64,000 nt of DNA from Methanoculleus frigidifontis (GTDB taxonomy: Archaea > Halobacteriota > Methanomicrobia > Methanomicrobiales > Methanoculleaceae): contig NZ_VCYH01000004.1 in assembly GCF_030464345.1 (NCBI RefSeq), forward strand, positions 186,001 to 250,000. The letters are read 5' to 3'. The notes under the pieces are model-generated. The model was not told the origin of the DNA. It made no database searches and saw only the letters and a list, made by a program, of their open reading frames with translations. Every line of letters begins with the position of its first letter. Positions within the stretch are counted from its first letter, which is position 1. Below are positions 11,095 through 19,515 of the stretch, one piece after another. The translations under genes were made by a program, and so were the position numbers.

Positions 11095-11345
11095 AACCTC
11101 CTCTCCACTCCCGGCGAGACAGTCCACCGCGGTTCGGATCATATCGGCCGCCGACCCATCGCGGATCTGCCGGAGCCACCCCGGGCGTCGGCGGGCTGCC
11201 CGGTTCCCGGGCACCAGCAGATCGGTGCTGGTCATTGCGCAGAGGAATGCGAGAGATCCTCTTCGCCGCCAGTTCCTCGCGGCTGTACTGCCCGCTGCCG
11301 AACCAGAGCGGCACCGTCCCGTTCCGTATCCCCGTGCCCGGCGGC
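11095..11345 (-). pseudogene. Remnant A of an ArdC-type zincin (C-terminal part)
   Basis: The 567-bp gap 10823-11389 has no intact gene. Leftward translation gives LWFGSGQYSREELAA in one frame, then after a shift AFLCAMTSTDLLVPGNRAA and GWLRQIRDGSAADMIR. This order matches the end of ArdC/zincin-like antirestriction proteins (FGSxxYxREELVAE, AAFLCxxxGI, NxAAYxxxWLRxLR). The same peptide motif recurs in remnant B (16650-16885). The HExxH part is absent or unrecognisable here. ArdC genes usually travel on plasmids and integrated elements, so this marks an old mobile insertion. The family call is from memory of the motif pattern. Confidence 0.55.
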
Positions 11346-12234: not shown

Positions 12235-12322
12235 CCCCGGGTGAAGGATACCTCCCGCTCCCCGTGCCGCCATCGCGGGGCATGCGGAGATGCACCCTCC
12301 ACCGGCCTCGAACAAAGGCCGG

Positions 12323-12580
12323 ATTGCCCCTCTTTTTCGATTTTAACGACGGTTCCGGATCGCGATCTCCGGCATAATGATTCGGCGAAGAATATCGCCC
12401 CAATTGCCGAAAAACGGCAGTATCGCAGGGTAATAGCGGCGATATGCGGCCAAGTAATTTTGAGACGATATCTGGTATGGGTCGCCCCGGGATCGGCCGT
12501 CTGATGGCTTCTGTGAGGGTCGATTTCCCGGAGGATTGGGCCGGAATTAAGGGCATTTAAAGGTTACTTGACCGAAATGG
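12323..12580. repeat. 258-bp dispersed element, copy 1
   Basis: This segment pairs with 17359-17616: both are 258 bp, begin ATTGCC and end CGAAA(T/C)GGC. They share blocks such as CGATTTTAACGA, GGATCGCGATCT, GGCGATATGCGGC, GTAATTTTGAGACGAT and CTGTGAGGGTCG. By eye roughly three quarters of bases match without net gaps. Weaker similarity continues about 60 bp to the left. No ORF is convincingly conserved between the copies. The rest of the gap 12235-12622 shows nothing else. Confidence 0.75.
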
Positions 12581-12622
12581 CTGCCCGGGCAGCAGTCCCA
12601 AAAAGATCGCCGGAAAAAGAGG

Positions 12623-15600
12623 TTATTGATGCTTCTTCTCCATGAAGAAGAAGGCTGCTCCCGCGACGATCAGGATCGCGACGATTGCGACGATGATGTA
12701 CAGGAACGGGAGTGCTTCGGGCGTCGGCGTCACCGGCGCTGCGGGGGTCGTCGCGGCCCCTGTCGGAACGGCCGTCGTGATCTCCGTCGGGGTGGCCGTC
12801 GGCAGGGTGCCGGTCGTGTAGACGACCGCGAACGTACTGAAGTGCGTGACGGTGGCGGTCAGCGTTCTGGTAGCCGTGTTGACCCTGGTCGTGACGTTCT
12901 CCCAGATGCCGGTTGTTGTATTGTACCACGTGATCGTCGGCACCTCTCCGCCGGCGGTCACCCGGTTCCAGTCATCCTCGGTGAGCGTGACGGAGAGGCT
13001 GATGCCCGGGTCGAAGGTGGCGCCCGCGGGACTGCACTCATAGACGTAGCCCGAGATGCTGAAGAGGGCACCTGCCGAAGCGGGCGGCACCCCGCCGGCA
13101 TCTTCAATCCGCTGGAGGGCGATGCTGCCGAGGGCGCTGCCGTCCGCGTCGAGAGCCCGCACGCCTGCGTTCAGGGTGAGTTTGCCGGTGTCGTCACCCG
13201 TAACGACGGCGATCGAACGGGTCACGATACCGCTGTCGCTGACCGTCAGCGCGCCGCTTCCGTGATAGGTGGTGACGCTGCGGCTGCTGCCGCCACTGCC
13301 ACCGCTCCTGCCGCCGCCCGGGGCGGTGACGACGACCGGGCTCGGGGCGGTCACCGTGCTGAACCCGTAGGCGTTGCTGGCGTTCAGGGTAACCGTGTAG
13401 CTCCCTGCGGCGGTGTAGGTGTGGGTCGCGTTCCGGTCGGTCGAGGTTGTGCCGTCGCCGAAGGTCCATGCCCAGGCGGTGACGATGCCGGTGGAGGTGT
13501 CGGTGAACTGCACCGCAAGAGGAGCGTTGCCTTCGCCGGGGGCGTGGGTGAAGCCCGCCACCGGCGGCGAAGGCACGAGGGCGAAGGAGACCGGCGTCGT
13601 GGCGTTCCGCGAGACCGTCACCGACTCGTTCACGGCGGGCTCGTAGCCGTCCAGCACCACGGTGACGTTATAGGTTCCGGTGTCGAGATCGCTCAGGGTC
13701 GCGTTCGTGACCGAGGCGTTCAGGACGCCGTCGAGATAGATCCCCGCCCCCGCGGGCGTCGAGTTCACCTGAAGCGTGCCGGTGAAGTGGACGAGAGTCA
13801 GTGCCACGACCTCTGTCTCACCGGCGGTCAGGACGACCTCCCGGCCGGCGGGTTCGCACTCTGCATGGACGACCGTGACGTTGTACTCGCCTTCCGGCAG
13901 ACCGAAGACCGTTGCGTTGGTCGTCCTCCCGGTGGCAACGCCGTTGAAGGAAACGTTCGCGCCTGCCGGAACCGAGGTTACGGTAATCGTGCCGGTGCCA
14001 AACGACTGCCACTGGAAGATCGGATACTGGACTTTGTAGGGAGATACCCGCCAGATCTTTGCGGGATCTGCATCGGTGCTGATGATACTCGTAGACCAGT
14101 GCAGGCCGGGATCGCCGGTGAGGAAGGCAATGTCCCTGAATTTGGTGGGATCGGAGACATAGGTGCCGGCAGAACAATCGCCGCCGTTATAGTGCCGGTA
14201 ACAGTTGGTGATGGTGCCACGGTTATGCCCAACAAGACCCCCGGCATACTGATTGGTGGCAGTGGCACTCCCGATTGCATAGCAGCTTGTGATGGTGCCA
14301 AACTCGTTCTGCCCAACAAGACCCCCGGCATACTGATTGGTGGCAGTGGCACTCCCGGTTGCATAGCACCCCGTGATGGGGCCCAACTCGTTAAAACCAA
14401 CAAGACCGCCGGCCCCCCTAATCCCGGCAGTGGCAGTCCCGGTTGCATAACAGTTGGTGATGGTGCCCACACCGTTCCGACCAACAAGACCGCCGGCCTC
14501 CGTCATCCCGGCAGCGGCAGTCCCGGTTGCATAGCACCCCGTGATGGTGCCCACACCGTTCTTACCAACAAGACCGCCGGCACTAAAACCGACGGCAGCG
14601 GCACTCCCGGTTGCATAGCAGCTCGTGATGGTGCCCTGGTTCAGACCAACAAGACCGCCGGCATCAGAACTCCCGGCAGTGGCATTTCCGGTTGCAGAAC
14701 AGTTGGTGATGGTGCCATAGTTTGCACTGGCAAGGACACCTACATATCTCCGTCCGGATACACCGGCGTCCCCGGCCGCGATTTGAAGATTCCGGATCTC
14801 CGCACCTGAACCGTGAAAGCCGAGAAAGCCAAAGAAGCCGACACCATCAACACCGCTCTTATCCATCACAAAATCGCTGATGGTATGCCCCTGGCCGTCG
14901 AAAGTGCCGGTGAATTGGGTACTCCCATTCCCGATCGTCTCCGTCGGGCTCCCGGCAGAAAGGGAGATGTTATTGGTCACGATGAAATGGTTGTCCCAGT
15001 GTGCGGAATCGGTGGAAAGATAGATGACGTCATCCCGGGTGCTGATCCGGTAGGGATCGCCTGCTGTGCCAGTGCCGCCGCTGTACAGCGGAACCATGGT
15101 AAATGCAACGGTTTCCGTTCCGCCCGCCGCAAGGGTTACCACCGAAAAGGCCGGTGAGAAGGTGTTGTCTTCATCTTCAACCGTGACGTTGTACTCGCCT
15201 TCCGGCAGACCGGAGACCGTTGCGTTGGTCGTCCTCCCGGTGGCAACGCCGTTGAAGGAAACGTTCGCGCCTGCCGGAACCGAGGTTACGGTAATCGTGC
15301 CGGTGCCGAAAGACTGCCACTGGAAGATTGGATACTGGCCTTTGTAGGGAGATACCCGCCAGATCTTTGCGGGATCTGCATCGGTGCTGATGCTATCAGC
15401 AGACCAGTGCAGGCCGTCACCGGGTGTCGTGCCGGTGAGGAACGCGATGTCCCTGAATTTGGTGCGATCGGACACATAGGTGCCGGCAGAACAATCGCCG
15501 CCGTTATAGTGCCGGTAACCGTTCGTAATGGTGCCAGAGTTGTAACCAACAAGACCGCCGGCACAATGCGTGGCAGTAGTGGCACTCCCGGTTGCATAGC

Positions 15601-16498
15601 AGTTCGTGATGGTGCCCCCATGGTTCACACCAACAAGGCCGCCGGCAGAAGTATCGGCAGTGACACTCCCGGTTGCATAGCAGCTCGTGATGGTGCCATC
15701 ATAGTTGTAACCAACAAGACCGCCGGCATGAACAGCGCCGGCAGCGGCACTCCCGGTTGCATAGCAGTTTGTTATGGTGCCATATTTGGTGCGACCAACA
15801 AGACCGCCGGCATCACAATCGGCAGTGGCACTCCCGGTTGCAGAACAGTTTGTTATGGTGCCATGTTCGGTGTAACCAACAAGACCGCCGGCATACCTAT
15901 CACCAGCAGTGGCATTCCCGGTTGCAGAACAGTTTGTTATGGTGCCATGTTCGGTGTAACCAACAAGACCGCCGGCATGGTATCCCCCGGCAGTGGCACT
16001 CCCGGTTGCAGAACAGCTCGTGATGGTACCATCATAGTTGTAACCAACAAGGACACCTACAAGATTGAATCCAGATACGCCGGCGTCCCCGGCCGCAATT
16101 TGGAGATTCCGGATCTTCGCACCCGAACCAAGCAAGCCAAAGAAGCCGACACGATCAACACCGCTCTTATCCATCACAAAATCGCTGATGGTATGTCCCT
16201 GGCCGTCGAAAGTGCCGGTGAATCCGGTGCTGCCATTCCCGATCGTCTCCGTCGGGCTTCCGGCAGCGAGGGAGATGTGATTGGTCATAATGAACTGTTT
16301 GCTCCAGTTTGCAGCATCGGTGGAGAGAGCGATGACGTCATCCCGGGTGCCGATCTGGTAGGGATCGCCCGCTGTGCCGGTGCCGCCGCTGTACGCAGCG
16401 GCCGGCAGCACCAGGCACATGCCAAACAGGAGCGCTCCAAGAAGAAGAAGCCGAAAGGGCGATATATTGGTGCAGATACAGCCAGAGGTGTACCGCAT
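12623..16498 (-). CDS. Giant secreted surface protein: GLUG repeats, PEGA domains, PKD domain, C-terminal anchor
   Basis: This is a 1291-residue cell-surface protein. Order: signal peptide (ISPFRLLLLGALLFGMCLVL, cleavage after AAA), first GLUG beta-helix (AGGLVGYTEHGTITNCSATG-type units, about seven), cap RHYNGGDCSAGTYVS, PEGA domain (TSVPAGANVSFNG), second GLUG helix (about seven units) with the same cap and PEGA, a third PEGA (NSTPAGAGIYLDG), PKD domain (WTFGDGTTSTDRNATHTYT), a Gly/Ser hinge, an uncharacterised beta domain, a Thr/Pro stalk and a C-terminal membrane helix ending MEKKHQ. GLUG/PEGA/PKD proteins act in adhesion and cell-envelope structure. I start at 16498; an in-frame ATG at 16525 is possible. 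Confidence 0.88.
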   Translation of the reverse strand: MRYTSGCICTNISPFRLLLLGALLFGMCLVLPAAAYSGGTGTAGDPYQIGTRDDVIALSTDAANWSKQFIMTNHISLAAGSPTETIGNGSTGFTGTFDGQGHTISDFVMDKSGVDRVGFFGLLGSGAKIRNLQIAAGDAGVSGFNLVGVLVGYNYDGTITSCSATGSATAGGYHAGGLVGYTEHGTITNCSATGNATAGDRYAGGLVGYTEHGTITNCSATGSATADCDAGGLVGRTKYGTITNCYATGSAAAGAVHAGGLVGYNYDGTITSCYATGSVTADTSAGGLVGVNHGGTITNCYATGSATTATHCAGGLVGYNSGTITNGYRHYNGGDCSAGTYVSDRTKFRDIAFLTGTTPGDGLHWSADSISTDADPAKIWRVSPYKGQYPIFQWQSFGTGTITVTSVPAGANVSFNGVATGRTTNATVSGLPEGEYNVTVEDEDNTFSPAFSVVTLAAGGTETVAFTMVPLYSGGTGTAGDPYRISTRDDVIYLSTDSAHWDNHFIVTNNISLSAGSPTETIGNGSTQFTGTFDGQGHTISDFVMDKSGVDGVGFFGFLGFHGSGAEIRNLQIAAGDAGVSGRRYVGVLASANYGTITNCSATGNATAGSSDAGGLVGLNQGTITSCYATGSAAAVGFSAGGLVGKNGVGTITGCYATGTAAAGMTEAGGLVGRNGVGTITNCYATGTATAGIRGAGGLVGFNELGPITGCYATGSATATNQYAGGLVGQNEFGTITSCYAIGSATATNQYAGGLVGHNRGTITNCYRHYNGGDCSAGTYVSDPTKFRDIAFLTGDPGLHWSTSIISTDADPAKIWRVSPYKVQYPIFQWQSFGTGTITVTSVPAGANVSFNGVATGRTTNATVFGLPEGEYNVTVVHAECEPAGREVVLTAGETEVVALTLVHFTGTLQVNSTPAGAGIYLDGVLNASVTNATLSDLDTGTYNVTVVLDGYEPAVNESVTVSRNATTPVSFALVPSPPVAGFTHAPGEGNAPLAVQFTDTSTGIVTAWAWTFGDGTTSTDRNATHTYTAAGSYTVTLNASNAYGFSTVTAPSPVVVTAPGGGRSGGSGGSSRSVTTYHGSGALTVSDSGIVTRSIAVVTGDDTGKLTLNAGVRALDADGSALGSIALQRIEDAGGVPPASAGALFSISGYVYECSPAGATFDPGISLSVTLTEDDWNRVTAGGEVPTITWYNTTTGIWENVTTRVNTATRTLTATVTHFSTFAVVYTTGTLPTATPTEITTAVPTGAATTPAAPVTPTPEALPFLYIIVAIVAILIVAGAAFFFMEKKHQ
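13874..14105. repeat. Intragenic direct repeat, copy 1 (PEGA/cap module)
   Basis: It is nearly identical to 15182-15413 at a constant offset of 1308 bp (436 codons) with only scattered substitutions, for example over TTGGTCGTCCTCCCGGTGGC and GATACCCGCCAGATCTTTGC. It encodes the PEGA domain and the end of the preceding GLUG module. Confidence 0.85.
14190..14720. repeat. Tandem GLUG-coding repeats, array 2
   Basis: About seven degenerate units of roughly 72-84 nt. Each is recognised on the + strand by CCGGTTGCATAGCA(C/G) followed by GTGATGGTGCC and AACAAGACCGCCGGC. They encode the second GLUG helix of the surface protein. Confidence 0.8.
15182..15413. repeat. Intragenic direct repeat, copy 2
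   Basis: Partner of 13874-14105. The identity is much higher than between neighbouring GLUG units, pointing to a recent module duplication or ongoing gene conversion. Confidence 0.85.
15525..16050. repeat. Tandem GLUG-coding repeats, array 1
   Basis: About seven units of roughly 75-84 nt with the same core as array 2. Two units near 15840 and 15920 are almost identical (CAGAACAGTTTGTTATGGTG, then CCATGTTCGGTGTAACCAAC). Confidence 0.8.
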
Positions 16499-16548
16499 GG
16501 AGAACAAATGGGGATCTGCAGACATAAATGCGTATTTTTGCGCATGCC

Positions 16549-16557
16549 GATATAAGA
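16549..16557 (-). promoter_or_regulatory. TATA box of the surface protein gene
   Basis: CTTATATCG on the minus strand lies about 25 nt before the ATG at 16525 and 50 nt before that at 16498, so transcription should start near 16527. Confidence 0.45.
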
Positions 16558-16649
16558 ATTTGTATTTCTCAACCGGGCAATCGGCGAATCCCCCGCAAAA
16601 TAAGAGATTTCTCTCATTCACCTCCCCCAAAAGGCCCGTATGCCGGCGA

Positions 16650-16885
16650 TTCCCGGAAGGGCAGTTGCACCCGGGGGAAGAGGCAGGAACCCCGCCGGGC
16701 GTTGCCAGATCGCCCGGTTCCCGGGCACCGGCAGATCGGTGCCGGTCATCGCGCAGAGGAACGCAAGGCCCAGCTCTTCGCGGCTGTACTCCTCGCTGCC
16801 GAACCGGATCGCCCGGGGATCCCCGGCCGGTCGAGCCGGGAGGCGTGCCCGGCCCGGTGCGTGCGCTCGTGGAAGTAGGCCGCGT
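16650..16885 (-). pseudogene. Remnant B of an ArdC-type zincin, with HExxH
   Basis: Leftward translation gives AAYFHERTHRAGHASRLDRP, holding an exact HExxH zinc motif in the usual ArdC context (YFHELxHxTGHxSRL). After a frameshift it gives IRFGSEEYSREEL directly joined to LAFLCAMTGTDLPVPGNRAI; the normal VAEMxA link has been deleted. The upstream single-stranded-DNA-binding domain of ArdC is absent. It shares the TDLxVPGNRA stretch with remnant A, so the two descend from one ancestor. At least one frameshift and both ends missing make it non-functional. Confidence 0.62.
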
Positions 16886-16908
16886 GGCAGGCCTCGGCCG
16901 GAGACGAT

Positions 16909-16959
16909 TTGCAACGGTTGCAAACAGGGTTGCAAAGGGGGTTGCAATAGTGGTTGCAA
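16909..16959. repeat. TTGCAA array, left cluster
   Basis: TTGCAA occurs at 16909, 16918, 16930, 16942 and 16954: steps of 9, 12, 12 and 12 bp. The hexamer is palindromic. Units read roughly GGGTTGCAAAGG. The 12-bp step puts successive sites a little over one helical turn apart. Two single copies follow at 17052 and 17154. Confidence 0.85.
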
Positions 16960-17238
16960 AGAGATCGCGGACCGCGTTCCTCGACGATACAAAGATAATT
17001 CAGGATAATAAGATATTCCAAAAGAGATCGATCACAACGATCCAAGATCGTTTGCAACAATTTCCGGATCACACAGTTCGCCCGTTCCGGCTCCACCGGA
17101 AGAGTACCCCGATCGCGTGCACGAACCCGCGATTGTGTGTGTTTTCGGATCGATTGCAAACAAGAAAATCGAAAACTCCGATTCGGCTGCGAATTGGAAA
17201 TTACTCAGCACAACAGAGATTTCGCAGGCAAAAAGTGT

Positions 17239-17268
17239 TTGCAACCATGTTTGCAACCCCCTTTGCAA
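17239..17268. repeat. TTGCAA array, right cluster
   Basis: TTGCAA at 17239, 17251 and 17263 with exact 12-bp steps, followed by decayed units GTACAA (17275) and TTGCAG (17286). Together with the left cluster it brackets about 280 bp of unusually AT-rich sequence without a recognisable gene. Confidence 0.82.
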
Positions 17269-17358
17269 CTCCAGGTACAACCGTGTTGCAGCCGGTGTCC
17301 GGTCGCCGGCTCCGGGGTGCGGAGACCCGCCCTCCCATCGCCCCTGAAAGAAGGGAGA

Positions 17359-17616
17359 ATTGCCGCTCTTTTCCGATTTTAACGAAGGTTCAGGATCGCG
17401 ATCTTCAGCAAACGGATTCACCGAAGCATATGCCCCCGATTTCAGAACGACGCCAGAAACGCAGGGCCATATCGGCGATATGCGGCAGGGTAATTTTGAG
17501 ACGATGTTTTGTATGGCCCGCCCCGCGATCGTCCGTCTGAGGGCTCCTGTGAGGGTCGTTTTCTCGAAGTAGAGGGTCGGAATTCCCGATATTTAATGTT
17601 TGCTTGACGAAACGGC
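17359..17616. repeat. 258-bp dispersed element, copy 2
   Basis: Direct-orientation partner of 12323-12580 (offset 5036 bp). It lies between the TTGCAA arrays and the modA promoter. The rest of the gene-poor stretch 16499-17817 holds only the surface-gene promoter, zincin remnant B and the arrays described separately. Confidence 0.75.
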
Positions 17617-17738
17617 AGAACCGGCGCTACGGGCACACGCTCAGCAGCAGCCACGCCCTCCGGTACCCAGGTTTACTTAACTCGAACAACACCACGAATA
17701 GCTGGCGAGAGACGTTAATAATAATTAATTTACAACAC

Positions 17739-17753
17739 CAATTTGTTAAATTG
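17739..17753. promoter_or_regulatory. Candidate operator: CAATTT-GTT-AAATTG inverted repeat
   Basis: A perfect 6-bp inverted repeat with a 3-bp spacer lies in an AT-rich stretch 65 bp before the modA start. It is a plausible site for a dimeric regulator sensing molybdate or tungstate; no regulator gene is adjacent. Confidence 0.4.
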
Positions 17754-17817
17754 AAATCTCAAACTTAATATGCGCCGTCGACGAACTGAAAGAGTACAAT
17801 CGATATCATACGACGTG

Positions 17818-18639
17818 ATGCACATGCAACGACAGAACATTCTTGCCATCCTCACACTCGTCCTCGCCGGCTGTATCCTCTTCACCGGCTGCACCGGGAC
17901 GCAGTCCACGACCGTTACCGAACCCGCCGACGAAACCCTCTTCGTTTACTCCGGCGCCGGGCTGAAAGCCCCGATGCAGGAGATCGGAACCGTCTTCGGT
18001 GAAAAATACGGCGTTACCGTCGAGTACACCTACGCAGGCTCCGGAGCGCTCATCACCCAGATGGAACTTGCGCAGAAAGGCGACGTCTTCATTCCCGGCG
18101 GCACGCCCGACTACGCCATCGCAGTGAACAAAGGTCTCGTCAGCGACGACCCGCAGTACGTCGCCTACCACGTTCCCGTGATCGCCGTGGCGAAGGGCAA
18201 CCCGAAGAAGATCACCTGCGTCGAGGACTTCACGAAGTCCGGCGTCAAGGTCGCGCTCGGGGGCATCAATGAGACCGCCATCGGCAAGGCGGGAGACAAG
18301 CTCTTCAAGAAGCACGGCATCGCCGACGCAGTCGAGGAGAACGTCGTCCTCCGCGCACCCACCATCAACGAACTCATCGTGGCAATGAACATGGGCACCG
18401 CCGACGCCACGCTCATCACCATCGATAAGATGAACGTCCAGACGATGGAGGCCATAGAGCTCCCGCTGGAGGACAACATGGCGCTGATCGTCCCCATCGG
18501 CACGACCACCTTCACGAAGAAGGCGGATCTTGCCGGGCAGTACATTGACTTCGTCGCCTCGGACGAAGGAAAAGCGATATTCGCCAGACACGGTTTCCCC
18601 ACCTACCCCGACCCGACGTACGCAGGGATCATGCCATGA
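17818..18639 (+). CDS. modA: Molybdate/tungstate ABC transporter, substrate-binding lipoprotein
   Basis: This extracytoplasmic protein captures the oxyanion for the importer. The 273-residue product has a lipoprotein signal (ILAILTLVLAGCILFTGC) and then the ModA-like opening ETLFVYSGAGLKAPMQEIGT, with further family blocks FGEKYGVTVEYTYAGSGALI and VALGGINETAIGKAGD. Whether molybdate, tungstate or both are bound cannot be read from sequence. Start is uncertain: 17818 or 17824 fit the signal peptide, while 17770 would add a basic tail. The permease and ATPase genes follow, giving a complete importer. Confidence 0.85.
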   Translation: MHMQRQNILAILTLVLAGCILFTGCTGTQSTTVTEPADETLFVYSGAGLKAPMQEIGTVFGEKYGVTVEYTYAGSGALITQMELAQKGDVFIPGGTPDYAIAVNKGLVSDDPQYVAYHVPVIAVAKGNPKKITCVEDFTKSGVKVALGGINETAIGKAGDKLFKKHGIADAVEENVVLRAPTINELIVAMNMGTADATLITIDKMNVQTMEAIELPLEDNMALIVPIGTTTFTKKADLAGQYIDFVASDEGKAIFARHGFPTYPDPTYAGIMP

Positions 18640-18702
18640 GCGGCAGGGATCGCCATCGCCGCACGGTTACCGAGCAGAACGGCATGCAGCAGGGCTAAAC
18701 GC

Positions 18703-19515
18703 ATGGGCAGATTACACCGGAGATTCTCCGGCACAACCATCTTTTCGGCGACGTTCCTTGCGATCTCGGCCGCCCTGTTCATTTTTATGGTCGCCGTCAT
18801 CGCCGGACTCGTCCTCTATCCGTCTCTGCCGGAGCTCATCGCAAGCCTCACCTCTCAGGAGATCATCTTTGCCGTCCAGCTCTCGCTGATCACCTCGGCG
18901 GTCTCCACTGCGCTCTGCGTCGTCGTGGCAGTCCCGGTCGCCTATGCGATGACCAGGTTCTCCTTCCCCGGCAAATCGCTCGCCAACGTCATCGTGAACC
19001 TGCCCCTCTCCCTCCCGCCGCTCGTGGCGGGTGTCGCCCTGCTGATCTTCTTCGGCCCGTCCCTCGTCGGCACGGTGCTGCGGGCGTCGGGCATCGATAT
19101 CGTGTATACCGTCACCGCGATAATCGTGGCGCAGTTCTTCGTGAACGTCCCCTACATGATCCGGGTCACCCGCTCCGCCTTCGAGATGATCAATCCCCGC
19201 TACGAATACGTTGCCCGGACGCTCGGGTGTACCGAGTGGGCCGCATTCCGGCAGGTCACCCTCCCCCTTGCATCGCAGGGGCTGATTGCAGGGCTGGTCA
19301 TCACCTGGTCGAAGTCCATCGGGGAGTTCGGGGCGGTGCTCCTCCTTGCGGGCGCGACGGTGATGAAGACCGAGACCCTGCCGATCGCCGTCTACCTGAA
19401 CATCTCCACCGGCGAACTGAACGAGGCCATCGCCGCTTCGGTCATCCTCATCGGGATCGCCCTCGTCTCGCTCCTGGTCTTCGAGCGCTACGGCGACGGG
19501 AAGCGGATAGTCTAG
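18703..19515 (+). CDS. modB: Molybdate/tungstate ABC transporter, permease
   Basis: This 270-residue membrane protein has about six transmembrane helices. The EAA loop that docks to the ATPase is visible as YEYVARTLGCTEWAAFRQVT followed by LPLASQGLIAG. The pattern matches ModB/CysT/WtpB permeases. It is 63 nt after modA; modC follows 9 nt after its stop, so translation is probably coupled. The final segment GEFGAVLLLAGATVMKTETL is typical of oxyanion permeases. Confidence 0.9.
   Translation: MGRLHRRFSGTTIFSATFLAISAALFIFMVAVIAGLVLYPSLPELIASLTSQEIIFAVQLSLITSAVSTALCVVVAVPVAYAMTRFSFPGKSLANVIVNLPLSLPPLVAGVALLIFFGPSLVGTVLRASGIDIVYTVTAIIVAQFFVNVPYMIRVTRSAFEMINPRYEYVARTLGCTEWAAFRQVTLPLASQGLIAGLVITWSKSIGEFGAVLLLAGATVMKTETLPIAVYLNISTGELNEAIAASVILIGIALVSLLVFERYGDGKRIV

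Follow-up and report, generated by a model that had tools for sequence, protein, structure and literature searches.

Hexamer clusters in the window

The 64-kb stretch of Methanoculleus frigidifontis DNA analyzed here (the window, taken at its whole length) has ten exact TTGCAA hexamers within 360 bp (16909-17268). The first-pass annotation had placed eight of the ten in two clusters with steps of 9/12/12/12 and 12/12 bp, the second continuing into two decayed units, and these positions are confirmed. It had also described the intervening DNA as AT-richer, and the two spacers adjoining the arrays are indeed 42% GC versus 62% for the window. Features of the locus are as follows.

16711..16908, minus strand: ArdC-like antirestriction gene fragment, directly left of the rep remnant; 83% DNA identity to C1:328534-328742
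16907..17306, plus strand: rep gene remnant from the 3' part (linker and beginning of the C-terminal region), homologous to P0001 residues 769-918
16909..16959, plus strand: left iteron array, five TTGCAA (16909, 16918, 16930, 16942, 16954; steps 9/12/12/12), matching the left array in the intact rep genes L020, L021 and L043
16960..17051, no strand: AT-rich spacer, 42% GC
17052..17057, plus strand: inner-left iteron TTGCAA, in the F-A-T frame (an alanine codon), unlike the frame of the array hexamers; conserved in relatives
17058..17153, no strand: dyad center between the inner hexamers, which are 102 bp apart start to start; spacing the same in the other mapped copies of the TTGCAA class
17154..17159, plus strand: inner-right iteron TTGCAA, in the I-A-N frame
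17160..17238, no strand: AT-rich spacer (42% GC), a candidate for unwinding in the TTGCAA class
17239..17291, plus strand: right array, TTGCAA at 17239, 17251 and 17263 (steps 12/12), then decayed GTACAA at 17275 and TTGCAG at 17286

The array is a single dyad-symmetric and nearly palindromic structure, and the isolated hexamers at 17052 and 17154 are a fixed part of it. Across the window, TTGCAA occurs 19 times versus an expectation of 5.85 ± 2.63, an about threefold excess that 0 shuffles reached. A scan of the whole genome (3.17 Mb) for TTGCAA-N6-TTGCAA, the 12-bp spacing that the first-pass annotation had singled out for checking, recovered 12 places, each listed on both strands, and 0 places when the pattern was searched backwards as a control in the same scan. 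Window shuffles and the controlled genome-wide scan rule out a chance cluster. All 12 places are copies of one ~395-bp sequence, distributed over contigs C1, C2, C3 and C4. A noncoding dispersed element or MITE is ruled out as well, because copies sit within intact ORFs. In this genome, all clustered TTGCAA copies turn out to be rep genes or remnants of them, which supports the earlier guess that clusters coincide with integrated elements and replication origins.

A remnant of a gene for a replication protein

The window copy is a degraded 3' remnant, the remaining gene having been lost, and is not itself an intact origin. In a tblastn comparison, window 16910-17368 aligns to P0001 residues 769-918 with 53% identity, and the remnant is interrupted by two in-frame stops (TAA at 17006 and TAA at 17009). 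Another locus, L013 (G000:C3:218975-219369), resembles it in keeping the iteron linker while helicase and winged helix have apparently been deleted. Because the array itself was the query used to find remnants, its retention in them is partly a matter of ascertainment and uninformative on whether remnants are under selection.

Elsewhere, copies of the array lie inside a long ORF of ~960 aa, in the same genome (L020, L021) and in relatives (L039, L043, L047, L040); the ORFs of L020, L021, L039, L043 and L047 are intact and, together with about 50 relatives, carry the iterons inside the initiator coding sequence. The gene product, Rep, is a replication protein of integrated mobile elements in Methanomicrobiales. 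Its domains are ordered as a primase-like N-terminal region, an MCM-like AAA+ domain, a winged helix, a disordered linker and a zinc finger. The primase-like label is given by analogy, from a distant phage relative annotated as a polymerase and the architecture described for Mpal_2033, rather than from a Pfam match. Fold comparison indicates that the helicase part resembles MCM AAA+ structures, and the C-terminal domain has four invariant cysteines, as a zinc finger. AlphaFold2 places the winged helix near residues 651-699 and its recognition helix at 681-689, with residues 682 and 683 inside this helix and 693 at the strand that follows, and gives the linker (754-904) a pLDDT of about 25, predicting it to be disordered.

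The scan of prokaryote genomes yielded 80 loci, overwhelmingly from metagenome-assembled genomes and isolates of Methanomicrobiales. Phylum-wide, 22 of 29 matching genomes are from the same order, and matches elsewhere span only part of Rep. Orc1/Cdc6-like genes adjoin rep in three loci (L112, L064, L129) and lie ~10 kb from the C1 copy. Searches of viral contigs gave no confirmed relative, those of phage and plasmid collections gave partial-domain matches only, and a sequence search of solved structures gave no informative match.

Linker arrays are constrained as DNA

The repeated hexamer varies over 55 distinct homologous linkers (TTGCAA, GTGCAA, CTGCAA, CTGCCA, CTGTCA, CTGTAA, CTGAAA, GTGAAA and ATGAAA). 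Its position in the gene does not: the arrays lie between winged helix and zinc finger, with hexamers in both orientations. The most frequent NTGNNA hexamer has a mean count of 6.3 per linker (n = 55) and at least 5 copies in 39 of the 55, as compared with 0 of 738 windows elsewhere in rep genes that have at least 5 copies of one such hexamer. Tested against synonymous-codon shuffles, counts are significantly high at p < 0.05 in 38 of 55 linkers for the NTGNNA hexamer and in 45 of 55 for any 7-mer counted in both orientations. Sixteen of the 55 are without five exact copies of one hexamer; some of these come from a subfamily whose recognition helix differs and whose repeat is of the GGAA type, and others look degenerate. 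Linkers of the 40 loci in which one hexamer stands out carry 318 hexamers in 22.3 kb, or 14.3/kb, as compared with 0.25/kb in the remaining gene and 0.41/kb in the flanks, and in all but one of these loci (39 of 40) the hexamers use two or three reading frames. In the linkers of L074, L076 and L152, the iteron block has apparently been enlarged by in-frame tandem duplication, with 14 CTGTCA in one linker.

Geometry is common to relatives although the hexamer sequence differs. The inner pair faces outward, with a spacing of 102 bp in the TTGCAA class and of 79 bp in loci that between them use five different hexamers. The AT-richest 60 bp of each examined rep gene falls in the linker. The loci show two of the features of iteron origins, multiple short, replicon-specific repeats and an adjacent AT-rich region. 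Since hexamer identity varies, frames are mixed and the dyad geometry is kept, the primary signal is at the level of DNA and is iteron-like. The initial reading of the clusters, as resembling iterons or a multisite regulator platform, is borne out in part: the signal is iteron-like, but the window copy itself is degraded.

The other initial reading, an eroded coding repeat, is correct in that the hexamers encode a CX3C peptide in intact genes of the TTGCAA class (GCKQECKGVCKGVCKE ... VCTHVCTPLCN), but it leaves the array unexplained and relatives differ. An intact homolog with such a tetrapeptide repeat is what the first-pass annotation had itself named as a refutation of its observation. Taken further, the coding-repeat reading would hold that the hexamers do nothing except encode a selected peptide, whether metal-binding or structural, and that the window has an eroded copy. 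Most steps within the TTGCAA class are multiples of three, as this predicts. Against it, the two inner TTGCAA are in another frame, with alanine replacing cysteine; CX3C arrays are limited to the TTGCAA-class clade, and relatives have different hexamers, encoding different peptides, in that position; copy numbers exceed those of synonymous shuffles; and the linker is predicted to be disordered. This peptide-only explanation is largely refuted and we consider it very improbable.

The winged helix covaries with the hexamer

Hexamers share the form x-TG-y-z-A, in which x, y and z are bases 1, 4 and 5. In an unbiased scan of all alignable columns (387), residue 693 best explains base 1, and residues 683 and 682 best explain base 4; base 5 tracks one clade only. 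When the tree is built from the helicase domain alone, leaving out the winged helix, all 6 branches on which base 1 changes also show a change at residue 693 (p = 1.7e-8, rank 1 of 480). For base 4, residue 683 changes on 5 of 8 such branches (p = 2e-4, rank 1 of 480), a result that by itself fails a 480-column correction. In both tests, independence among branches and parsimony states is incomplete. Within the recognition helix, what distinguishes sisters L080 and L115 is residue 682, Q and H, respectively, and their hexamers are CTGAAA and CTGCAA. The zinc finger was considered as the specificity domain and rejected, its columns being outside the top eight of the scan.

Predictions were scored in eight nonidentical genes that were fetched after the rule was derived and are scorable on all positions. 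The rule is right in seven (L147, L148, L150, L151, L153, L154, L157), including two (L148, L150) predicted correctly although their nearest relatives carry another hexamer. It is wrong for L149, a held-out gene in which no array was found though residues HQ/S predict one. One further gene, L156, agrees with the rule at base y only. A Rep subfamily (L139, L087, L089, L101, L155, L158-L162) has SN instead of SY in the recognition helix and, where measured, a GGAA-type linker repeat; it is possibly a second specificity family.

A candidate origin inside the initiator gene

We suggest, with a probability of roughly 0.83, that the arrays are what is left of a replication origin of the iteron type, located inside the initiator gene of an integrated mobile element and bound by that gene's own product. 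In intact copies, the initiator of ~960 aa would bind the hexamers via its winged helix, at a dyad of sites (left cluster, outward-facing inner pair and right cluster) flanking AT-rich DNA, which would then melt and allow the helicase to load. We infer direct binding, melting and origin firing; what the computations establish is homology, decay of the window copy, constraint on the DNA, dyad geometry and covariation. The DNA of the linker encodes a peptide predicted to be disordered, and Rep would therefore accept any peptide that its binding sites happen to encode; in the TTGCAA class, that peptide is the CX3C array. A change in winged-helix specificity would be accompanied by a concerted change of the sites.

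Two rival explanations keep the sites and change the role or the binding partner. The sites could be bound by the winged helix of the initiator for autoregulation, control of copy number or incompatibility, or partition, with the true origin elsewhere. Known iteron systems do use iterons for control too, and covariation speaks to recognition and says nothing of initiation. But the 300 bp upstream of the gene have 0 exact hexamers (7.8 kb pooled), so simple promoter repression is not indicated, and dyad sites, AT-rich DNA and a fused helicase suit initiation better; we regard control as unlikely. Alternatively, another factor, such as a neighboring Orc1/Cdc6-like protein, would recognize the sites and the correlation with the winged helix would reflect shared ancestry. 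Orc1/Cdc6 proteins bind archaeal chromosomal origins, and their genes are adjacent in several elements. However, winged-helix columns rank first even on a tree that leaves out this domain, and the hexamer is predicted correctly where that of the nearest relative differs, making recognition by another factor highly unlikely.

We lean toward a further reading in which, in a family of archaeal integrated elements, a single ORF is a self-contained initiator-origin unit. Winged helix and sites are ~90-220 codons apart, so that origin and specificity would move as one, and some ten sites, differing in reading frame, would switch in step with two or three residues, amounting to a readable specificity code. 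Remnants, which keep sites after the death of the gene, could be bound in trans by intact Reps of the same class in this genome. Few origins of integrated archaeal elements are known, and the literature library that we searched gave no description of an origin for the elements studied here. The rule locates a candidate origin in dozens of elements, with three residues predicting its hexamer, and opens the mapping of origins in methanogen elements to direct test. The loci also provide a natural data set in which one DNA-binding domain and some ten sites shift specificity together under coding constraint.

Comparison with known systems

Iterons are reported inside the rep coding sequence of RepA_N plasmids, whose DnaD-like initiator is not known to have a helicase domain; P0001 has no Pfam match to the RepA_N domain. 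At the lambda ori, the initiator binds inverted iterons that lie, together with an AT-rich opening region, inside the O coding sequence (PMC5043065). The likeness lies in having both sites and AT-rich DNA within an initiator coding sequence; the lambda iterons, however, are 19 bp, whereas those of the Rep linker are a dyad of hexamers whose identity varies with the recognition helix over many elements. PHROG, Pfam and phage searches gave no match of lambda O to Rep. To our knowledge, lambda O is without an MCM-like helicase domain. By analogy, the Rep-linker arrangement appears to work like the lambda ori, and it is not a member of the lambda O family.

Mobile elements SaPI (Rep-ori) and SCCmec (Cch2-ori) have an initiator helicase with a DNA-binding domain that recognizes short iterons (PMC7581432), but the origin is downstream of the helicase gene and not inside it as are the Rep arrays. 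Likewise, ORF904 of archaeal plasmid pRN1 is a single protein with prim-pol, helicase and winged helix, but the origin proposed for pRN1 is a stem-loop of ~100 nt located downstream of that gene (PMC4234260). A further counterpart is arCOG07809, with Mpal_2033 of Methanosphaerula palustris, a protein of integrated archaeal elements in which primase, helicase, HTH and zinc finger are united (PMC4158269). Rep and arCOG07809 are very likely the same protein family. The passage that describes Mpal_2033 calls the helicase superfamily I, whereas fold comparison of Rep gives an MCM-like AAA+ domain, and it describes no origin, whereas the Rep arrays are a candidate for one.

Neighborhood of the remnant

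The ArdC-like fragment to the left of the remnant has a counterpart on C1 with an intact frame near 328.5 kb, matching ArdcN and MPTase-PolyVal (a zincin domain), and a second ArdC-like fragment is at window 11198-11310, minus strand. No structured RNA was matched above the Rfam gathering score in window 15000-19000. The right edge of the remnant adjoins a ~315-bp dispersed repeat (window 17306-17620), for which an Rfam search gave no match. The repeat has a second copy in the window (12276-12581) and about 35 diverged copies in the genome, which are nearly constant in length and end near an ATTTAA...TTGCTTGACC block. Window 12623-16630, minus strand, encodes a 1335-aa surface-type protein with 14 GLUG motifs and PEGA and PKD domains.
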